The notes under the pieces are model-generated. The model saw only the letters and a program-made list of their open reading frames with translations. It had not been told where the DNA came from and searched no databases. Positions 31,008 to 40,593 of a stretch of 64,000 nt of DNA are shown one piece after another. Source of the DNA: Bacillus sp. UNC438CL73TsuS30 (lineage in GTDB: Bacteria; Bacillota; Bacilli; Bacillales; Cytobacillaceae). Each line of letters starts with the position of its first letter. Within the stretch, counting starts at the first letter, position 1. Position numbers and translations under genes: made by a program. The stretch is taken from positions 447,653 through 511,652 of the forward strand of contig NZ_AXVA01000005.1 in the NCBI RefSeq assembly GCF_000482325.1. The letters run 5' to 3'.

Positions 31008-31451
31008 ATGAAGCGAATTGGCTCATTATTTTTGATGGGTATAATAATTGCATTTATTGCTGCCGGATGCAGTTCGAATCAAGCGAACACAAAATTTGAT
31101 AAAAAAAATGCTCCTTTACCGGATTACGTTCTAAACTCAACCACAAAAATAAAAGAAACCTATGTAATGGCCTCGAACTATCCAAAGGTATTGGCACAGG
31201 TTCCGTGTTTTTGCGGCTGTGGTACGGATGGGCATGATAGTAATTTAAGTTGTTATATTGATAAATTCGATTCAAATATGAAAGTAGAACAATGGGATTC
31301 GATGAGTATATCGTGAGACATTTGTATCAATATCGCCCGGGAGGCGGTACAAATGCATCTGGATGGTAAAAATCCAAAGGAAATTTATCGATTAATTAAT
31401 GAAAAATATAAAGAATATGGGGATCCAACACCAACACCTGAACCAAAGTAG
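31008..31451 (+). CDS. PCYCGC-family lipoprotein, candidate selenoprotein with in-frame TGA at codon 103
   Basis: Reading through TGA at 31314-31316 gives 147 residues; stopping there gives 102. Signal peptide with lipobox AAGC (C21), then the family core PCFCGCG (C67, C69, C71) with H76 and C82. Relatives in Bacillus continue with a CxxC (recalled as HGxxCGVC) followed by a helical tail. Here the same frame continues after the TGA as DICINIAREAVQMHL and ends in the usual E-K-Y-K-E-Y then PTPTPEPK, so the TGA replaces the first Cys of CxxC, giving UxxC. A hairpin starts 2 bases after the TGA. The ATG at 31008 follows GAAGGAGGG. Alternatives: a nonsense mutation, or readthrough. It is followed after 9 bases by a cytochrome c gene. 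Outer-leaflet lipoprotein; metal (copper) or redox role is unproven. Confidence 0.78.
31314..31355 (+). promoter_or_regulatory. candidate bacterial SECIS element
   Basis: TGA is followed by a 13-base-pair hairpin: CATTTG (31319-31324) with CAAATG (31350-31355), a 6-base bulge, then TATCGCC (31331-31337) with GGCGGTA (31343-31349) including one G-U pair. The loop is CGGGA, with G at its second base, and starts 21 bases after the TGA. These values fall in the range published for bacterial SECIS hairpins (loop 16-37 bases from UGA, G within the first two loop bases). Confidence 0.65.
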
Positions 31452-31460
31452 GGATAGCCT

Positions 31461-32114
31461 TTGAAGAAATTATTCGTTGGAGTTTTTGCTTTGATTTTAA
31501 TTGCCGCTGCTTTCCTTGGGAAGGGATTTATTCCCGTTCAGAATGACTCTAAAGCGATTGCAACAGGTAAAAAAATTTATCGTCAGCATTGTCTTGCCTG
31601 TCACGGACAAACTGGTAATGGTGAAGGCACAAAGGTCGGGACAGCCCTTAATAATCAGCAATTCTTAAGTACGGTGACAAATCGTGATCTATATGAGTAT
31701 GTGAAATCTGGCAGGAATGGTACAGATATGCATGCTTACGGAACAATTTTGTCCGAAAAAGATATAAACCAACTCGTTACCTTTATCCGAAGTTGGCAAA
31801 CCGACAGAATTAAATTTGTTGCGCCAAAAACGATCTCTGGAAATATCGAGAGGGGAGAGAAACAATATAATCTGTATTGTCTAAATTGTCATGGAGAGGC
31901 AGGCGCGGGAAAATTAAATATGGGGACAGCTCTTTCAAATCCACAATATTTAAAATTCACTTCCAATAAGCAAATTTGGATTAGTACGGCTTATGGCCGT
32001 GAAGGCACCCGTATGGGTCCATCCTTAAAAGGGCTAGACGGGGTACGGCAATTAAAAAAGGAGGATATTACCGATATTGTTTCCTATATTCGGTCATTAG
32101 AAAAGAAAAAGTAG
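31461..32114 (+). CDS. membrane-anchored diheme cytochrome c
   Basis: 217 residues from a TTG start. An N-terminal hydrophobic anchor (~5-25) and two cytochrome c domains: C44-LA-C47-H48 and C140-LN-C143-H144. Candidate Met axial ligands are in TDMHAYG and TRMGPSLKG. No Cys lipobox, so the anchor is probably uncleaved. Lies 9 bases after the PCYCGC gene and is closed by a terminator, so the two form a short operon. It may carry electrons on the outer face of the membrane; its partner oxidase or reductase is not in the window. The Ccm genes that follow would attach its heme. Confidence 0.92.
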   Translation: MKKLFVGVFALILIAAAFLGKGFIPVQNDSKAIATGKKIYRQHCLACHGQTGNGEGTKVGTALNNQQFLSTVTNRDLYEYVKSGRNGTDMHAYGTILSEKDINQLVTFIRSWQTDRIKFVAPKTISGNIERGEKQYNLYCLNCHGEAGAGKLNMGTALSNPQYLKFTSNKQIWISTAYGREGTRMGPSLKGLDGVRQLKKEDITDIVSYIRSLEKKK

Positions 32115-32146
32115 AAACCTGAATCAACTGGATTCAGGTTTTTTAC
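32115..32146 (+). terminator. terminator after the diheme cytochrome
   Basis: CCTGAATC and GATTCAGG pair around AACTG, followed by TTTTTTA. Confidence 0.9.
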
Positions 32147-32338: not shown

Positions 32339-33397
32339 ATGCTAAAAAAGAAATGGTTTGTCCTATTCATTCTTGCCTCATTTTTATCCAGCTTTTGTTT
32401 ACAAAAAGCAAGTGCAGAAATGGAATTTAAGGAAGAAAAATTTCCGTTTAAAGAAATGCAAATTCAGGTAATGCCGGAGTTTGATTACCCGGAGGATTGG
32501 CCAAAAGACACTCCATCCTTACTAGTAGGTCAATACGGAACGATTACTAATAAAAGCGGACAAGATTTTAACGGTAAAGTTGAAATTTCTGTTCCTGCAA
32601 AGGAAAAAAACTTTCAGGCCTATTTAGTAGCAGAATTTCCTGAAGTAAATAAGCCAGAGGTTCAGCGGCCATATGATGTTGATCAAGAAAAAGGCATCGT
32701 TACCTGGAAACCGAAAAATCCAATTAAAAATAACCAAACCTATCGATTTGTCATCGAATATTACACAAATTCAATAAAAGTTGCGGATAAAAAAAGTTTT
32801 ACATACGAATTAAAAAATAATGCAGAAATTAAGCAGCTTGACGTAATTTTTTATGCACCAATGAAAGCAAAAGAAATTCAAATGAATCCTAAACCAGAAA
32901 ATACTGAAAAAAGTGAGTATGGAGAAGATCTTTTCTATTACCAATACAAAAACGTTAAATCTGGAGATTCAATGAAATATTCGTTCTCTTATAAGAAATC
33001 TGGATCTGAATCAACAATGGCTGCCATTAATAAACAGCAAGCTCCTAAAGATGAAAACCATAAAGGGGTTAGCAGTGGTACTTCAACCGATCAAGTGCTC
33101 AATAACAGTACAAGCACTAAGAGTACAAACCCAAAACCGATTATCGGGGTTGGTGGTGCTTCTATAATCGGATTAGCCATTATCATTGCAGGTGCTCTTG
33201 TATATATGGGAATCAAAGGTAGACCACATAAAGAAACAAAGGGTGCCTTGAAAAATCAACCGCAACAACCAAAACAAACTCTAAAAAAAGAAAATAAGTC
33301 TTTAAACGATGAGCAAAAAAAGGAACTTCGAAAAAAACTGTTAACAGGAAAAATTGATCAAGAAACATACGACGAACAAATGAAAAAATTAATTTGA
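32339..33397 (+). CDS. exported Ig-like domain protein with TM and charged cytoplasmic tail (ccm cluster, unknown)
   Basis: 352 residues. Signal peptide (~1-26, ending KASA), an extracytoplasmic beta-rich region (~27-225: YGTITNKSGQDFNGKVEIS, TYRFVIEYYTNS), a Ser/Thr linker, one transmembrane helix (~265-290, IIGLAIIIAGALVYMGI) and a cytoplasmic tail ending KLLTGKIDQETYDEQMKKLI. That tail resembles SHOCT-type modules and recurs in two other proteins of the cluster. It is first in the ccm operon, 13 bases before ccmE. No family name recognised; a scaffold or sensor for cytochrome maturation is only an inference. Confidence 0.7.
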   Translation: MLKKKWFVLFILASFLSSFCLQKASAEMEFKEEKFPFKEMQIQVMPEFDYPEDWPKDTPSLLVGQYGTITNKSGQDFNGKVEISVPAKEKNFQAYLVAEFPEVNKPEVQRPYDVDQEKGIVTWKPKNPIKNNQTYRFVIEYYTNSIKVADKKSFTYELKNNAEIKQLDVIFYAPMKAKEIQMNPKPENTEKSEYGEDLFYYQYKNVKSGDSMKYSFSYKKSGSESTMAAINKQQAPKDENHKGVSSGTSTDQVLNNSTSTKSTNPKPIIGVGGASIIGLAIIIAGALVYMGIKGRPHKETKGALKNQPQQPKQTLKKENKSLNDEQKKELRKKLLTGKIDQETYDEQMKKLI

Positions 33398-33410
33398 TGG
33401 GGTGATGGGA

Positions 33411-33863
33411 ATGAAGAAAAACACACTCGTATTACTTGGAGGCTTTGTAATTGCTGGGGCGATTATTTTTCTCTTAATGGCCGCAACGCCGGGGTCAAGC
33501 GGGATTGAATTAACGATGAAACAATTACTTGCAACACAGGACCAACATAAAGATGATTTTGTCACCGTCGAAGGCTTATTACAGGAAAAAACCATTCAAT
33601 GGAATCCTGACAAAATTGAATTGAAGTTTGATTTAAAGGATAACGAAGGTAATACGCTTCATGTCATCCATAACGGACCAAAACCGGATAATTTCTCTCA
33701 AGGAGTCATTGTCATTCTCCAAGGGTCACCGACAACAAAGGAACGTTTTAAAGCTGAATCGGTAAAAACGCGATGCCCTTCAAAATATGAGGGAAAAGAT
33801 ATGAAAAACTATGATCCTAAAAAACACGCAAAAATGTTAAACAAGCCACCAAAAGAAAACTAA
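33411..33863 (+). CDS. ccmE: cytochrome c maturation heme chaperone CcmE, CXXXY type
   Basis: 150 residues. N-terminal transmembrane anchor (~5-24) and an OB-fold beta barrel (KDDFVTVEGLLQE, IELKFDLKDNEGNTLHV, QGVIVILQGS). In the classical protein a His in HXXXY binds heme covalently; here the motif is C122-PSK-Y126, the Cys variant known from Desulfovibrio and archaea. It should take heme from CcmC on the outer face and give it to CcmF/H. The ATG at 33411 is chosen for GGGGTG 6 bases upstream. The C-terminus is Lys-rich. Confidence 0.88.
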   Translation: MKKNTLVLLGGFVIAGAIIFLLMAATPGSSGIELTMKQLLATQDQHKDDFVTVEGLLQEKTIQWNPDKIELKFDLKDNEGNTLHVIHNGPKPDNFSQGVIVILQGSPTTKERFKAESVKTRCPSKYEGKDMKNYDPKKHAKMLNKPPKEN

Positions 33864-33888
33864 GAGAGAAACATAAGAAGGTGACAAA

Positions 33889-35871
33889 ATGTATTTATTC
33901 GCGAATGCAACAATTTATATTGGATTAGCACTTGCCATATACGCTCTTCTCATTATGACACTAGGAATTAGTACAAAGAATCAGCGGTTTATCAATAGTG
34001 GTAAGGGTGCAATGGTTGCCCTATTTACATGCGCAGCGTTTGCCATGATTTCATTGCTGTATCTATTAGCAACCTCTCAATTTCAATATGAATATGTAAC
34101 AGACTATACAAGCAGTGAGCTTCCGATTATTTATAAACTCACGGCTTTATGGGCAGGAAATTCCGGTTCCCTGCTATTATGGACTTTTTTCTTAACATTG
34201 TATTCAATCATGATTGTTTTTTCTAAAAAGATGAAAAGGAACCCAATGGTTCCATATATTTCTGCCATTCTATTAGCCAATGCGGTTTTCTTCTTTTTCA
34301 TACTTGGCTTTGTAGCAAAACCGTTCGCCATACTGACAGAAATACCTGCAGAAGGTAAGGGTCTAAATCCGATGCTTCAAAATCCAGGTATGATTATTCA
34401 TCCTGTGACCCTTTACCTGGGCTATGTTGGATTAGCTGTTCCCTTTGCATTTGCTATGGCTGCGTTAATCCTGAAAAATGTCGATGATTTTTGGATTAAA
34501 ATGACAAGACGGTGGACGATTATTGCTTGGTTGTTTTTAAGCTTAGGCAATATCTTTGGGGGGCAATGGGCGTATGTTGAACTAGGCTGGGGCGGATACT
34601 GGGCATGGGATCCGGTAGAGAACGCTTCGTTTATGCCGTGGTTAACGGCTACTGCTTTTTTACACTCTGTTATGATTCAAGAGCGAAAAAATATGTTAAA
34701 GGTTTGGAATATCAGTTTAATTATTGTTTCCTATGCATTGACACTATTCGGAACATTCTTGGTCCGAAGTGGAGTTCTTACTTCTGTCCATGCTTTTGCA
34801 AACTCAAATCTCGGATTATACTTCCTAATCTTTATGGGGGTAGCCGTCATTGGGGCATTATATGTGCTGATGAGCCGCTATAACCTTCTTAAAAGAAGTG
34901 CAGGAGAATTTACATCCTTTGTTTCAAAAGAAAGCAGTTTCTTAGTTAACAATCTATTATTAGTTGGAGCAGCTTTCGCCGTGTTCTGGGGAACCATCTT
35001 TCCGCTTGTTTCAGAGGCTGTTCGTGGTACGAAGGTAACGGTTGGGCTTCCTTTCTTTAATAAAGTAGAAGCTCCAATTCTTTTATCGATGATGTTTGTG
35101 ATGGCTGTTTGTCCTATGCTTGCCTGGCAACGTTCCACTGTGAAAAATTTAAAGAAAAACTTTGTAATTCCTGCAATCCTTGCAGTCGCTGGTATGGTGT
35201 TAATGATTGTGCTCGGTATCCAGAAAGCATGGGCGGTTATCGGCTATGGAGTTATTATTCTATTATTTATTACCCATTATTTAGAGTTTTATCGAGGCGT
35301 AAAGGCAAGGAGAAAAATGACGAAGGAAAGTCCATTTGTTGCACTTTACCGTTTAATGATTAAAAATCGCCGCCGCTATGGAGGTTATCTTGTCCACCTT
35401 GGGATTGCTTTTATCACAATGGGGATTATTGGTTCACAAAACTATGATTTGCAGACGATGAAAACCGTTCCTTTAGGCGGCTCTATTGACATTAAAGATT
35501 ATCGTATCAATTATGAACGGCTAGATCAGAAAAAAGAAGGAATTAATGATATTGTTTACGCAGATGTTACTGTCTTTAAGGATGGGAAAAAGCTTGGCTC
35601 CTTTGAACCACAAAAGGTCTTTTACGGTAACTGGGAAGAACCTTCTTCTGAGGTAGCAATTATTTCTTCTTTAAAAGAAGACTTATATATTGTCCTAAGT
35701 GCCTGGGAAGATGATGGCAAGGCCACATTTGTCGTTAAAGTAAATCCAATGATGGATTGGTTATGGATTGGGTCTTTCATGATTGTGATCGGGGCATTGT
35801 TTGCTGTATGGAATGGCAAGTATCAAACTATTACTCCGAGATATACAGGAGTAAAGAAAGAGGTGGCTTAG
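33889..35871 (+). CDS. ccmF: cytochrome c heme lyase subunit CcmF
   Basis: 660 residues, about 14-15 transmembrane helices. The WWD domain is clear: ELGWGGYWAWDPVENASFMPW. Flanking conserved His residues are seen in IIHPVTLYLGY, FLHSVMIQE and LVHLGIAFITMG, the type that ligate heme b or position heme. Joins heme to apocytochrome CXXCH with CcmH. AGAAGGTGA ribosome binding site. Length is typical (640-660). B. subtilis uses ResBC (System II) instead, so System I is a striking content for a Bacillus-like genome. Confidence 0.95.
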   Translation: MYLFANATIYIGLALAIYALLIMTLGISTKNQRFINSGKGAMVALFTCAAFAMISLLYLLATSQFQYEYVTDYTSSELPIIYKLTALWAGNSGSLLLWTFFLTLYSIMIVFSKKMKRNPMVPYISAILLANAVFFFFILGFVAKPFAILTEIPAEGKGLNPMLQNPGMIIHPVTLYLGYVGLAVPFAFAMAALILKNVDDFWIKMTRRWTIIAWLFLSLGNIFGGQWAYVELGWGGYWAWDPVENASFMPWLTATAFLHSVMIQERKNMLKVWNISLIIVSYALTLFGTFLVRSGVLTSVHAFANSNLGLYFLIFMGVAVIGALYVLMSRYNLLKRSAGEFTSFVSKESSFLVNNLLLVGAAFAVFWGTIFPLVSEAVRGTKVTVGLPFFNKVEAPILLSMMFVMAVCPMLAWQRSTVKNLKKNFVIPAILAVAGMVLMIVLGIQKAWAVIGYGVIILLFITHYLEFYRGVKARRKMTKESPFVALYRLMIKNRRRYGGYLVHLGIAFITMGIIGSQNYDLQTMKTVPLGGSIDIKDYRINYERLDQKKEGINDIVYADVTVFKDGKKLGSFEPQKVFYGNWEEPSSEVAIISSLKEDLYIVLSAWEDDGKATFVVKVNPMMDWLWIGSFMIVIGALFAVWNGKYQTITPRYTGVKKEVA

Positions 35872-35872
35872 T

Positions 35873-36376
35873 ATGAAATACAAATATTCTATTGGGCTTA
35901 TCCTCATTGCTTTTATCTTTCAAGCATCCTTCTTTCGTGTAGATGCCAGAACCATTGATTATAAATCAGCTGAATTTAAAGCGGTAGCTTCACAATTTTC
36001 CTGCACATGCGGCTGTGGACAGGATCATTTTGAGTGCGATCCCAATACATGCAGTCTCACGAAAGAGTTTAAGAAGGATCTAGTTGGCATGATGAATAAG
36101 GGTTGGGACAAGGATAAAATCCGCGATTATTACGTCAATATCTACGGTGAAGAAATTTTAACTGCTCCCGAAAAAAGCGGTTTTAGCTTGACTGCCTGGA
36201 TTCTTCCTTTTGTCGTGTTAGGACTTGCTGCCGCTTCATTATTTTTCGTCATTAGAAAATGGGTGAGGAAAAAGGAAGGGGATGAACCTGTCCTTGAGGC
36301 TGAAACAAATAAGGATGAAGTTGAAGGAGAAATCCTTTCCTCCATAATTGATGAGGAACGTAAAAAGTATCTCTAG
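35873..36376 (+). CDS. ccmH: cytochrome c maturation thiol oxidoreductase CcmH (CcmL-type)
   Basis: 167 residues. Signal peptide, then a three-helix domain with Cys-rich FSCTCGCGQDHFECDPNTC (family motif LRCxxC; here CTCGC), LVGMMNKGWDKDKIRDYYV and a transmembrane helix (~105-125), then an acidic cytoplasmic tail. Reduces apocytochrome CXXCH thiols for heme attachment by CcmF. It starts one base after the ccmF stop, so translation is coupled. The extra cysteines may also mark it as related to PCYCGC proteins. Confidence 0.9.
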   Translation: MKYKYSIGLILIAFIFQASFFRVDARTIDYKSAEFKAVASQFSCTCGCGQDHFECDPNTCSLTKEFKKDLVGMMNKGWDKDKIRDYYVNIYGEEILTAPEKSGFSLTAWILPFVVLGLAAASLFFVIRKWVRKKEGDEPVLEAETNKDEVEGEILSSIIDEERKKYL

Positions 36377-36388
36377 GATGTGAACAAA

Positions 36389-36760
36389 ATGCACGATATC
36401 TCAATCATATCAATCATTTTTACCGTTGCATTATTACTGGTCTGTTTATTTTTAACCATATCACCACTTTTTAATAGGGATTCTTATTTACCGGGCAGTG
36501 TAAAACCAGAACAAGCTGGGACGAAAGAAGCACTGATGACAACACTCAATGAATTAGAGTTTGAGTACAAGATGGATAAAATATCGCAAACCGATTATCA
36601 ACACTTAAAGAAACAGTACGAGATTCAGATTGCCGTGTTGATGAAAGAAGACGAGCATGTCGAAGAACAGAAGATAAATCAAGCGCTAATGGCTGAAATA
36701 GAACGAGAAATTGAAGCAACGATGAAAAGCTATAAAAAGAAAAAGGGGGAAGGGAAGTGA
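36389..36760 (+). CDS. small membrane protein resembling CcmI N-terminus
   Basis: 123 residues from the ATG with TAGGATG upstream. One transmembrane helix (~3-24, ISIISIIFTVALLLVCLFL) followed by a Leu/Glu coiled region containing LNELEFEYKMDKISQTDYQHLKKQY, close to the conserved ELEFDYxxGKLSxxDY of CcmI-like proteins. TPR repeats of full CcmI are missing. Its product would sit by CcmF/H and may link to apocytochrome. The gene ends overlapping the next by 4 bases. Confidence 0.7.
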   Translation: MHDISIISIIFTVALLLVCLFLTISPLFNRDSYLPGSVKPEQAGTKEALMTTLNELEFEYKMDKISQTDYQHLKKQYEIQIAVLMKEDEHVEEQKINQALMAEIEREIEATMKSYKKKKGEGK

Positions 36761-37749
36761 TTAAGAAGATCACCATTTTCTTCCTTGGGTTGCTGATGCT
36801 TCTTCCCTTAAATGGGATGGCAGCATCCAATTCAAAGATTTCAATTGATATGCATTATCTTGTAGTAAGCCCTGCAGAAGATGGCTCTACGAATATGATG
36901 AATATGGTCAATTATTCGAATGAAACTGCCCATGAATATAACGGGGATGGAAAAAGTGAAGGAGTATTAAAAGTAACCTTGCCGGTAGGAGCTACAGACT
37001 TAAACTTTTTAGATAGTAAAATAGCAATAAAACAGATGGATACAGGGTTTATTACAAAGGATCCAATCCTGGCTAATCAAACTCAGGTTCTTCCCTACAG
37101 TTATCGGATGACAAAAGGTAAGGGAATTAACCTTTCGTTTGATTATCCTGTGCAAACGATGCAGGTCCTAGTCCCTGAAGGCATGGGAAGTGTTGAATTT
37201 AAGGGTGTGGAAGCAACAGAACAGGGACTCTTTAAATTTGAAAATCAAAACTATTGGGGCTATAGCGTCGAAGGAATTAAAGTGGACCAGTCCTTTACGC
37301 TTTTTTATAACAAGGATAAACAGCCTTCCACAGAAGGAACTGCGGCAGCGGCAGAGAAAAATAGCGCTAAAACAACATCCGTTACACGAACGGCACCTGC
37401 GTTTCATAATCCAGGACATATTCGCATGTGGGAGCAATCGGCACTAAGGCGCTTCAACCCGCATCTTTTTTTAATCGTATTGTTTGCCATAATCATCGCA
37501 GGAGTCTCCTATTTTGCCTACTTTAAAAGAAAAACGAGATTGGAAGAGGAAAGGCTTGGTGCAGATAAGGAAGAAAAAGCGTTTAAGCTGTTAATGGCAA
37601 AACAAAAGGCAATTTTGGATAAAATTCTTGAGCTCGAAGAAACCTTCGGGGATGGAAGCCTGTCTGAGGATGATTATCAGGCAAAACTCAATGCATATAA
37701 ACAGCATTTGGTCCAAGTGAAATTGAGTTTACGGAAATATATAGAGTAA
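36757..37749 (+). CDS. second exported/TM protein with cytoplasmic coil (ccm cluster, unknown)
   Basis: 330 residues from a GTG overlapping the previous stop. Signal peptide (~1-22), a beta-rich outer domain (~25-190: ISIDMHYLVVSPAEDGS, GINLSFDYPVQTMQVLVPEG), linker with RT/AP residues, transmembrane helix (~225-250, HLFLIVLFAIIIAGVSYFAYF), and a cytoplasmic coiled coil with GDGSLSEDDYQAKLNAYKQ. The layout parallels the 352-residue protein at the start of the operon. No family recognised. Possibly a heme- or apocytochrome-handling scaffold of Gram-positive System I. Confidence 0.7.
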   Translation: MIKKITIFFLGLLMLLPLNGMAASNSKISIDMHYLVVSPAEDGSTNMMNMVNYSNETAHEYNGDGKSEGVLKVTLPVGATDLNFLDSKIAIKQMDTGFITKDPILANQTQVLPYSYRMTKGKGINLSFDYPVQTMQVLVPEGMGSVEFKGVEATEQGLFKFENQNYWGYSVEGIKVDQSFTLFYNKDKQPSTEGTAAAAEKNSAKTTSVTRTAPAFHNPGHIRMWEQSALRRFNPHLFLIVLFAIIIAGVSYFAYFKRKTRLEEERLGADKEEKAFKLLMAKQKAILDKILELEETFGDGSLSEDDYQAKLNAYKQHLVQVKLSLRKYIE

Positions 37750-37772
37750 GCTTCTAGTTTGGGGGGACTGCA

Positions 37773-38477
37773 ATGATTGAAATACAAAAACTTACTAAGC
37801 AAGCGGACAACAAATTAATTTTACGTGGAGTAGACCTCTCTATTAAAAAAGGAGAAACAGTAGCCATTCTTGGACCAAACGGTGCGGGAAAAAGTACTCT
37901 GTTAAAAGTGCTTGCTGCCTTAATAAAACCCACATCGGGAATAGTCAAAGTAAATGGTTTGGATTTAAAAAAGAACCAAACGGAGATTAAAAAAATATTA
38001 GGATACCTGCCCCATTCAAGCTTGCTTTATGATCATTACTCGCCTTTGGAAAATCTCGTATTCTATGGAAATGTTTATGGTGTGCAAGAGGTCGAAAAAA
38101 AAGCGGTTGAACTGGTAAAAGATGTAGGATTGTCTTTCTTTTTAAATGAACCGGTAAAGAATTTTTCCCGTGGGATGATCCAAAGAATTGCAATTGCCCG
38201 AGCGATTATTCATGATCCGGAAATCCTACTTCTCGATGAGCCGCATACTGGATTAGATCAAGGGGCGATAACGATATTAAACAAAGCAATCCTTTCCATG
38301 AAAGAAAAAGGGGCAACAACCTTGATGGTTACACATGATTTTAAACAAGCTGCTGAAATTTGTGACCGAATTATCATTGTGAAAAATGGGAAACTTGTCG
38401 ATGATTTTCACATCAAGGATCAGTCCCTTAGCATCGTTTCTCAAAAATATGAGCTGCAGGTGGAGGGAGCCTCATGA
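37773..38477 (+). CDS. ccmA: heme exporter ATPase CcmA
   Basis: 234 residues. ABC ATPase: Walker A GPNGAGKST, Q-loop region GYLPHSS, signature NFSRGMIQR (a variant of LSGGQ), Walker B ILLLDEPHTGLD and the switch His in MVTHDF. With CcmB, C and D it drives release of holo-CcmE. It begins the ccmABCD group; the stop overlaps ccmB (ATGA). GGGGGG-type ribosome binding site. Confidence 0.93.
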   Translation: MIEIQKLTKQADNKLILRGVDLSIKKGETVAILGPNGAGKSTLLKVLAALIKPTSGIVKVNGLDLKKNQTEIKKILGYLPHSSLLYDHYSPLENLVFYGNVYGVQEVEKKAVELVKDVGLSFFLNEPVKNFSRGMIQRIAIARAIIHDPEILLLDEPHTGLDQGAITILNKAILSMKEKGATTLMVTHDFKQAAEICDRIIIVKNGKLVDDFHIKDQSLSIVSQKYELQVEGAS

Positions 38478-39154
38478 ACCTTTTTCGAACAGCGCTCCTA
38501 CTAGCAAAAAAAGATTTACTCTCAGAATTAAAAACAAAGCAAATATTAGTAACTCAGATTATTTTTGCCGGACTTGTCATCGTGGTTTTCAGCTTCGCCT
38601 TTGATCCTGCAAACAATACAACCAAAGCTGTTATTCCCGGGATTATTTGGGTGATTATCGTTTTTGCCGGTATCTTAGGTCTTAACCGCTCATTTATTTC
38701 CGAGCAGCGAAATGATACGATTCAGGGTTTATTGGTGGCGCCGATGGAAGCCGCAAGTATTTTTTTAGGAAAATTCATCGCAAATTTCACGATGATTCTA
38801 ATTGTTGAACTGGTTTCCATCCCGTTTTTATTCTTATTATTTGATTTCAAAATGCTTGGAAGTGTCGGTTATTTTATTCTCGTTATCTTTGTCGGCAGCT
38901 TTGGGTTTATTTCCATTGGTACTTTTTTAGCTGCCTTGGCTGCGAATTCCAGAAGCAGCGAAATGTTGTTGCCATTATTATTATTTCCGATTACAAGTCC
39001 GATCCTAATTGGGGTTACCCAAGCAACCAGGATTATTTTAACGGATATGAGCAAATTATCAAGTGCACTTTCATGGACGCAAATGGTCACAGCTTACGAT
39101 ATTATTTTCTTCGTGGTTTCGTTTTTATTAATCGATTATATATTGGAGGTTTAA
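38474..39154 (+). CDS. ccmB: heme exporter permease CcmB
   Basis: 226 residues with six transmembrane helices (~20-40, 50-68, 92-115, 127-150, 155-178, 200-222). The opening LLAKKDLLSELKTKQ and FDPANNTT then GIIWVIIVFAG are family-typical. Works with CcmA as the membrane half of the ABC unit. Translation is coupled to ccmA by overlap; next gene starts 4 bases later. Confidence 0.92.
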   Translation: MNLFRTALLLAKKDLLSELKTKQILVTQIIFAGLVIVVFSFAFDPANNTTKAVIPGIIWVIIVFAGILGLNRSFISEQRNDTIQGLLVAPMEAASIFLGKFIANFTMILIVELVSIPFLFLLFDFKMLGSVGYFILVIFVGSFGFISIGTFLAALAANSRSSEMLLPLLLFPITSPILIGVTQATRIILTDMSKLSSALSWTQMVTAYDIIFFVVSFLLIDYILEV

Positions 39155-39157
39155 GAA

Positions 39158-39919
39158 ATGAGTATGAATCTCGAAAGGGAAAAGGTCACGCTTCCATTAC
39201 CTCAATTGGACGAAGCAAAGCACTCGAGGTTACCTAAAATATTATTTGGCAGTACGGTTATTGCAATGCTTTTATCTCTTTATTTTATTTTCTTATATGC
39301 GGAGGAAGAGAAAACAATGGGTGCGGCACAAAAGATCTTTTATTTCCATGTAAGTTCCGCCTGGGTGGCCTTTTTTGCCTTTTTTATCACCTTTTTGTTT
39401 AGTATATTGTTTTTGATCAAGCGGAAAAGAATCTTTGATACATATGCCTATGTTTCCGCAGAAATTGGGATTGTGTTTACGCTAATTGTATTAACAACTG
39501 GCCCAATATGGGCAAAATCATCATGGAATACTTGGTGGGTATGGGAGCCCCGTTTAATTACGACGTTAATCCTTTTCTTTATATATATTGCCTATATTAT
39601 GATTCGTCATATGGATGGAGTCTGGGATAAAAAGGCAAGGCTGTCTGCTGTTTTCGGAATCATTGGGTTTGTTGATGTTCCGATTGTATTCTTTGCGATT
39701 CGCTGGTGGCAGACAAAACTTCATCCAATTGTTTTTGGAGAAGGTCCTTCTCAAAAAGGAGAGGGGATTGCCCCAACGATGCTTGTAGCTTTGTTGGTTA
39801 CGATTACGACGTTTACACTTCTTTATTCCTATTTACTAAACAAAGGCGTAACACTCGAAAATATGAAAATTAAAGTAGATCAATATAAAGAAAAATTAAG
39901 AGAAAGCATGGAAAATTAG
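39158..39919 (+). CDS. ccmC: heme-presenting protein CcmC
   Basis: 253 residues with six transmembrane helices. WWD segment reads SSWNTWWVWEPRLITT (Asp of the usual WD is Glu here). Heme-ligand His candidates flank it: YFHVSSAW and KLHPIVF. Hands heme to CcmE. TTGGAGG precedes the ATG. The extra ~20-residue N-terminal segment before the first helix is Lys/Glu-rich. Confidence 0.92.
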   Translation: MSMNLEREKVTLPLPQLDEAKHSRLPKILFGSTVIAMLLSLYFIFLYAEEEKTMGAAQKIFYFHVSSAWVAFFAFFITFLFSILFLIKRKRIFDTYAYVSAEIGIVFTLIVLTTGPIWAKSSWNTWWVWEPRLITTLILFFIYIAYIMIRHMDGVWDKKARLSAVFGIIGFVDVPIVFFAIRWWQTKLHPIVFGEGPSQKGEGIAPTMLVALLVTITTFTLLYSYLLNKGVTLENMKIKVDQYKEKLRESMEN

Positions 39920-40086: not shown

Positions 40087-40593
40087 ATGAACCAGCGTGT
40101 CATCAAATCAGTCGTGTTGATCCTTTTAATTGGAATGTTTTCGTTTTTCGCCTATAGTTTAGTGAGTAAGGCGAAGCATACAGATGTAGGGGATCAAGCC
40201 TATAATTTTAAATTGCCAAATTTGACAGGCAGTAATACAAGGCTTTCTGATTTTCGCGGTCAAGTGGTTGTTTTGAATTACTTTGCAACCTGGTGTGCAC
40301 CATGTAAGGAGGAAGCACCGGAACTAGAAGCTTTTGCAAAGGATTACGGTGATCAATATAAATTGATTATGGTAAATAGAGGCGAAACAATCGACCGGGT
40401 TAAAAGGTTTTTGAAAAAATATAATACACCCGCAATCTATATTTTTGATTACAATGCTAAAATATCAAAATTATATAACGTCACAGGACAGCCTGAAACC
40501 TTTGTGATTGACAAAAAAGGTGTGATCCGTGAACACTATAATGGTCCGGTAACCGAAATGCAGCTTTATAATTTTGTTAAAAAGTATGACTAG
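40087..40593 (+). CDS. ccmG: membrane-anchored thioredoxin (CcmG/ResA type)
   Basis: 168 residues. N-terminal anchor (~6-25) and thioredoxin fold with WC70APC73 (FATWCAPCKEEAPEL) and a cis-Pro in TGQPETFVIDKKG. Keeps apocytochrome cysteines reduced outside the membrane. The active site WCAPC and Glu-rich helix resemble ResA more than a general DsbA. Could equally be named ResA. Last gene of the operon, followed by a strong terminator. Ribosome binding site GGAGG. Confidence 0.9.
   Translation: MNQRVIKSVVLILLIGMFSFFAYSLVSKAKHTDVGDQAYNFKLPNLTGSNTRLSDFRGQVVVLNYFATWCAPCKEEAPELEAFAKDYGDQYKLIMVNRGETIDRVKRFLKKYNTPAIYIFDYNAKISKLYNVTGQPETFVIDKKGVIREHYNGPVTEMQLYNFVKKYD

Follow-up and report, generated by a model that had tools for sequence, protein, structure and literature searches.

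Organization of the locus

The window analysed here is a 64,000-nucleotide stretch of the genome of Bacillus sp. UNC438CL73TsuS30 (contig NZ_AXVA01000005.1), and all features described below lie on its forward strand. At 31008..31451 it carries a lipoprotein gene of the PCYCGC family (PF13798), assigned by Pfam and by its relatives, with a Shine-Dalgarno-like AAGGAGG upstream of the ATG at 31008 and an in-frame TGA at codon 103 (31314..31316), the putative selenocysteine (Sec) position and the first of a UxxC motif (UDIC). If this TGA is taken as a residue, the product is 147 amino acids long, and the frame is otherwise intact up to a TAG stop. The protein is laid out as a lipobox cysteine (Cys21), a PCFCGCG motif at codons 66-72 (31203..31223; located by frame translation and alignment), U103, C106 and a total of 44 residues past the TGA; the frame open for 44 codons with an intact second cysteine, as described in the original prediction, matches in its coordinates the translation of 31008-31451. 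A Pfam search with this product scored 98.7 bits against PF13798, over the gathering cut-off of 25. Across an alignment of 87 proteins (A1: the window's PCYCGC protein and 86 relatives), P66 was invariant and C67, C69 and C71 were each at least 90% conserved, whilst downstream of the TGA the frame was conserved and C106 was again invariant.

Nine bases past the PCYCGC stop begins a gene for a diheme c-type cytochrome (31461..32114, with a TTG start according to the tool); the two genes are probably co-transcribed, and their order is kept in relatives. A terminator-like hairpin (32113..32143, recognized by consensus match only) separates the cytochrome gene from a cluster of cytochrome c maturation (ccm) genes. 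The first gene past the hairpin encodes a protein with a signal and a membrane segment, judged by eye (32339..33397), that has no family over cut-off and is conserved with the cluster. It is followed by CcmE (33402..33863, PF03100), with CxxxY (CPSKY) instead of HxxxY, a replacement described for archaea and some bacteria (PMC9084895); CcmF (33889..35871); CcmH with the motif CTCGCGQ (35873..36376, PF03918), the model of which matches PDB entries 2hl7 and 2kw0; two conserved proteins of 126 and 330 amino acids without a Pfam match at E 0.001 (36380..37749); an ABC ATPase occupying the position of CcmA, then CcmB and a CcmC-like Cytochrom_C_asm protein (37773..39919); and a TlpA/ResA-like thioredoxin in the place of CcmG (40087..40593). 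Together these genes make up a cluster for cytochrome c maturation by System I. The three conserved proteins lacking a family over cut-off (32339-33397 and 36380-37749) accompany the ccm cluster in relatives as well.

System II is also present in the genome (ResB), and System I is therefore an addition rather than the only route; this Bacillaceae genome combines ResB with a System I cluster (33402-39919) whose CcmE is of the CxxxY type. NrfA was considered as a client of the cluster and rejected, there being no PF02335 match in the genome.

Conservation of the in-frame UGA among relatives

Codon 103 was read in 155 distinct genes as TGA (n = 115), TGT (n = 23) or TGC (n = 17), where UxxC/CxxC formed part of the site-finding pattern and three more genes (two Cys, one TGA) escaped that pattern. 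The comparison with relatives proposed in the original prediction thus returned either Cys or TGA in every distinct gene read, and the same 155 genes show the pattern by which bacterial selenoproteins are recognized, an in-frame UGA where homologues have an aligned Cys. Within the genus, 55 of 61 genomes (own included) contained the gene, and only seven of these 55 had Cys alone. The close relatives among named records were mostly Neobacillus and Bacillus strains, which places the genome with Neobacillus. Farther away, Sec-type members extended to actinobacterial metagenome assemblies, with TGA at the site in 7 of 20 distant loci (L197-L216).

The codons past the TGA gave a dN/dS of approximately 0.36, compared with 0.23 before it, as rough ratios of mean dN to mean dS over related pairs, omitting those in which dS was saturated or very low and using differing pair sets (1035 before the TGA, 2362 after). 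This value indicates that the codons past the TGA evolve under purifying selection, in line with what had been proposed as a check.

Seven loci (L050, L092, L109, L110, L150, L151 and L153) each held a pair of closely spaced TGA-type PCYCGC genes. One metagenome copy (L206:7890-8342) read UDLU, with TGA for both residues of the second CxxC, and represents a double-Sec protein or else an error of assembly.

A positionally fixed hairpin downstream of the UGA

The hairpin originally described as starting 2 bases past the TGA with a 5-base CGGGA loop was recovered on refolding (31319..31361, apical loop at 31338-31342), with an energy of -14.1 kcal/mol, its first pair 2 bases past the TGA and its loop starting 21 nt past it. 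The bSECIS model calls for a G among the first two nucleotides of a loop 16-37 nt from the UGA (PMC13188914), an arrangement that the window's hairpin has under our own loose rule, which is modelled on the published bSECIS model. As a single sequence, the hairpin was of modest significance (z -2.04 by shuffling, where 7 of 200 shuffles folded equally well; z -1.9 relative to synonymous resampling).

Among relatives, the rule detected the hairpin in all 101 Sec-type genes that were distinct over 66 nt, with the loop starting exactly at +21 nt from the TGA in 98 of them (CGGGA 67, CGTGA 30, CGTGC 1); the search suggested for the 31300-31370 region thereby yielded a hairpin at a fixed place in Sec-type genes. 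Cys-form PCYCGC (lipo)proteins share the architecture of a PCYCGC motif and a second CxxC, but have Cys at 103, and although 18 of 40 Cys-type genes folded some hairpin under the same loose rule, only one did so at +21 (GCGGA) and none of the 40 had a CGGGA or CGTGA loop there. Since the loop encodes a conserved Arg-Glu, the protein constraint on it was tested by synonymous resampling. When folded without constraint, 84 of the 101 Sec-type genes had a 5-nt loop at +21, compared with 913 of 5050 synonymously resampled sequences and 1 of the 40 Cys-type genes; this loop was absent from all seven Cys-type genes of the genus, which retain Ala-Arg or Ala-Gln at the corresponding position. Folding energies differed less sharply, with a mean z of -1.65 for Sec-type genes and of -0.15 for Cys-type genes.

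Across the 101 Sec-type genes, stem pairs 1-5 formed in 504 of 505 cells and pairs 1-7 in 645 of 707, compared with 197 to 283 when the partner was slid by one or two, and pair 4 varied between C-G (n = 74), A-T (n = 20), T-A (n = 6) and T-G (n = 1). The stem thus covaries across Sec-type genes. What goes beyond chance is the position-exact conservation over 101 distinct genes, not the single-sequence fold. An Rfam search around the PCYCGC gene gave no match at its family's gathering score.

Selenocysteine machinery and its co-occurrence with the UGA form

All four components that the original prediction had named for checking were found in the genome, which encodes a complete Sec machinery comprising SelA (563 bits), SelB (353 bits, cut-off 242), SelD (401 bits, with an in-frame TGA of its own) and tRNA-Sec(UCA) (64 bits, cut-off 47, anticodon TCA). 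Across 398 genomes, consisting of this genome and relatives, selA was detected in 268 and the PCYCGC family in 229, three of which (G166, G184 and G242) were set aside as unclear in the co-occurrence table. The TGA form was frequent: with this genome counted in, 109 of the 229 family-bearing genomes had it. Of these 109, recognized from the tool's count of in-frame stops where the genes went unread, 108 encoded selA, compared with 61 of 117 genomes with Cys copies only (Fisher p 9e-19, uncorrected for kinship). Five genomes (G069, G098, G208, G279 and G334) were placed in the Cys-only class on the matches read, each having a second match beyond these; all five have selA, so reclassifying them would not weaken the contrast. 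The seven genus genomes with Cys only all keep selA. The one exception on the TGA side, G159 (L124), encodes a TGA-type gene (GFGUQVC), yet neither selA nor tRNA-Sec was found in its genome, for which recent loss, contamination or missing contigs are candidate readings.

Because the TGA is shared among relatives, the hairpin covaries at an exact position and the Sec genes are present in the genome, Sec is nearly certain from sequence, and we infer that UGA codon 103 of the PCYCGC lipoprotein is very probably read as Sec. SelB and tRNA-Sec would decode the UGA, and the bSECIS-like hairpin just downstream would assist insertion. The original proposal of a candidate selenoprotein with UxxC for CxxC is thus supported by relatives, hairpin, machinery and purifying selection alike. 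The opposite reading, a pseudogene or sequencing error in which the TGA is a nonsense change ending the protein at residue 102, might draw on a mechanical ORF caller that stops at 31316 and on a single-sequence hairpin z of only about -2, but is exceedingly improbable, since a TGA common to 115 of 155 distinct genes excludes a sequencing error and is more than a random nonsense mutation, with the frame conserved past it, C106 invariant in 87 proteins, the hairpin covarying and the Sec machinery in place.

Exchange of Sec and Cys, and plasmid copies

A tree of 128 proteins, built with the TGA residue masked, required at least 10 changes between Sec and Cys, seven of which were forced by well supported branches (the method was quick, and 50 of 125 inner branches were weak). 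The tree thus indicates repeated exchange between Sec and Cys. The clade containing the window's protein comprised 64 rows (57 Sec and 7 Cys), within which the inferred direction is from Sec to Cys. These changes contrast with the view of a 2026 review that replacement of Sec by Cys is rare in bacteria (PMC13188914).

Matches to PCYCGC were found in 17 plasmid records, all below 60% identity. None of the four translated plasmid copies had a TGA, one having Ser at the site, and they are therefore uninformative on how the TGA form is annotated publicly. The copy with Ser, from a Priestia plasmid (L222:2848-3336), reads PCYCGS, has Ser for Cys at the position of U103 and looks degenerate. No phage record matched the PCYCGC gene, and a phage origin was rejected accordingly.

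A known selenoprotein family with a branch beyond its curated model

The suggestion that PCYCGC proteins are an unrecorded selenoprotein family did not hold, as PF13798 with UxxC is already listed among selenoproteins in the 2026 review as 'CYCXC family protein (hypothetical protein OS_HP4)' (PMC13188914), the source of OS_HP4 being a 2007 paper on an Olavius symbiont (reference 60 therein). The listed UxxC is the window's motif, the Pfam family is the same, and the corresponding NCBIfam profile (NF041379, OS_HP4_CYCXC equivalog) aligns with window residues 45-135, covering PCFCGC and U103; in this comparison the window protein scored 71.3 bits, below the cut-off of 90. All 87 proteins in A1 stayed under that cut-off, the best being L198 (86.2 bits, E 1.2e-24). 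As PF13798 is listed while the A1 proteins all fall under the NF041379 cut-off, the window protein belongs to an established selenoprotein family, in a branch beyond the reach of the curated model.

Within the portions of the prokaryotic selenoprotein literature that we covered, no placement of a PCYCGC selenoprotein in Bacillaceae was found, and earlier notice is possible; in the PCYCGC literature, a lipoproteome paper names PCYCGC without any mention of 'selen'. Such genes are easily annotated as truncated, and NCBI's own model for this selenoprotein also misses the window's member at its threshold.

Similarity to CcmH and predicted fold

Comparison by hhalign of the PCYCGC profile with the window's CcmH gave a probability of 94.7 (E 6.4e-8 as a single comparison) over 61 columns, and a rerun gave a probability of 95.2 with a score of 53.1. 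Forty shuffles of the ectodomain columns with the cysteines fixed reached at most a score of 37.1, a probability of 78.1 and an E of 1.8e-5, indicating that the profile similarity goes beyond cysteine spacing. Shared with the N-terminal domain of CcmH (PF03918) are the CxCGC motif and, after it, a helix pair with a G..xxI..Y pattern, whereas the PCYCGC protein differs in being a lipoprotein and in having an additional redox pair plus a beta hairpin. The Pfam CcmH model itself did not match the window's PCYCGC protein at E up to 1, and matched three of the 87 A1 members (best E 0.036).

The predicted PCYCGC structure (mean pLDDT 91.2) consists in order of helices, the motif loop, a beta hairpin, a helix right after U103 and a further helix. 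Foldseek returned no usable match to this model in the PDB, CcmH with its three-helix fold included, an absence that is no evidence for a new fold, and a sequence search of solved structures gave only weak matches (ferredoxin II, E 0.076; saposin, E 0.16). Because the window's own CcmH model, predicted with lower confidence (mean pLDDT 66.7), does find the PDB CcmH structures 2hl7 and 2kw0 whilst the PCYCGC model finds no relative there, we did not file the PCYCGC protein as CcmH.

Possible function

Of the 30 genus loci fetched with wide flanks, 24 had CcmE and CcmF near PCYCGC, and four of the remaining six (L144-L147) were second copies. The same proximity was seen in all 30 named close-relative loci, which were chosen by similarity and partly drawn from the same genomes. 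At the level of family or order it held for 6 of 28 loci and among distant loci for 3 of 17, giving 63 of 105 in total. The three distant loci belong to Methanosarcinaceae and ANME-2 archaea and encode Cys-type proteins; there the PCYCGC member neighbours CcmE and CcmF, and the fetched stretch gave no homologue of the diheme cytochrome. PF13798 had no match in any of 14 control genomes, Methanosarcina acetivorans included.

In the proposed mechanism, a redox-active UxxC pair would lie on the membrane's outer face beside the conserved CxCxC motif, and the PCYCGC lipoprotein would act as a thiol/selenol reductase, related to the N-terminal domain of CcmH, in System I cytochrome c maturation. This role is the likeliest single reading, though we hold it tentatively and at less than even chances. 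The downstream ccm cluster in 24 of 30 genus loci and the CcmH-like profile speak for it; against it, the terminator-like hairpin parts the PCYCGC-cytochrome pair from the ccm genes, the cluster already has its own CcmH and TlpA, the PCYCGC model has no PDB match, and other TGA-type copies lie elsewhere, some by ArsR-type or CsoR-type regulators. The ccm context and the CcmH-like profile may be the new part: no literature linking a selenoprotein to cytochrome c maturation was found among titles and abstract openings, and earlier notice is possible.

The chief rival, a credible minority reading, is a selenoprotein that would bind or deliver a metal (copper, zinc or cadmium) on the membrane's outer face rather than reduce thiols, the conserved Cys, His and Sec residues being able to form a metal site. 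A scan of 20 neighbours of six other TGA-type loci returned AdoMet decarboxylase and aminotransferases alongside ArsR-type regulators, YtkA, a DUF326 protein, a metal-sensitive repressor (PF02583) and ZnuA, the last five of which would fit such a role. Likewise, in two of the three plasmid regions looked at, Cys-type or degenerate copies have heavy-metal P-type ATPases and ArsR/SmtB regulators in their vicinity, one of them also a CDF transporter, but the third region is without such neighbours. The window's own subfamily, moreover, adjoins the ccm cluster, and the copy in G159 adjoins DsbD_TM (CcdA-like) and TlpA-like genes, both of which argue against a metal role.

A further alternative, which we consider rather improbable, is that the protein is an accessory redox lipoprotein for the diheme cytochrome c itself, for example in electron transfer or repair, and not part of maturation. 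The 9-base spacing of the two genes, their conserved order and the terminator-like site right after the cytochrome would suit this arrangement, but the three archaeal members stand by CcmE and CcmF with no diheme cytochrome homologue detected in the fetched stretch.

Maturation by a thiol/selenol reductase can also be framed more broadly, and more doubtfully, for the family as a whole: PCYCGC/CYCXC proteins might be CcmH-related extracytoplasmic thiol/selenol reductases serving the variant System I with a CxxxY-type CcmE. They would then serve Gram-positive bacteria and some archaea in which CcmH is reported missing, with Sec as the working residue in Bacillaceae, a reach that we likewise regard as uncertain. 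Archaeal System I is described as lacking CcmH except in one species (PMC9084895, PMC4429474), and a replacement of CcmH is considered unlikely by the authors of PMC9084895. The tie to cytochrome c maturation gives these proteins a testable function.
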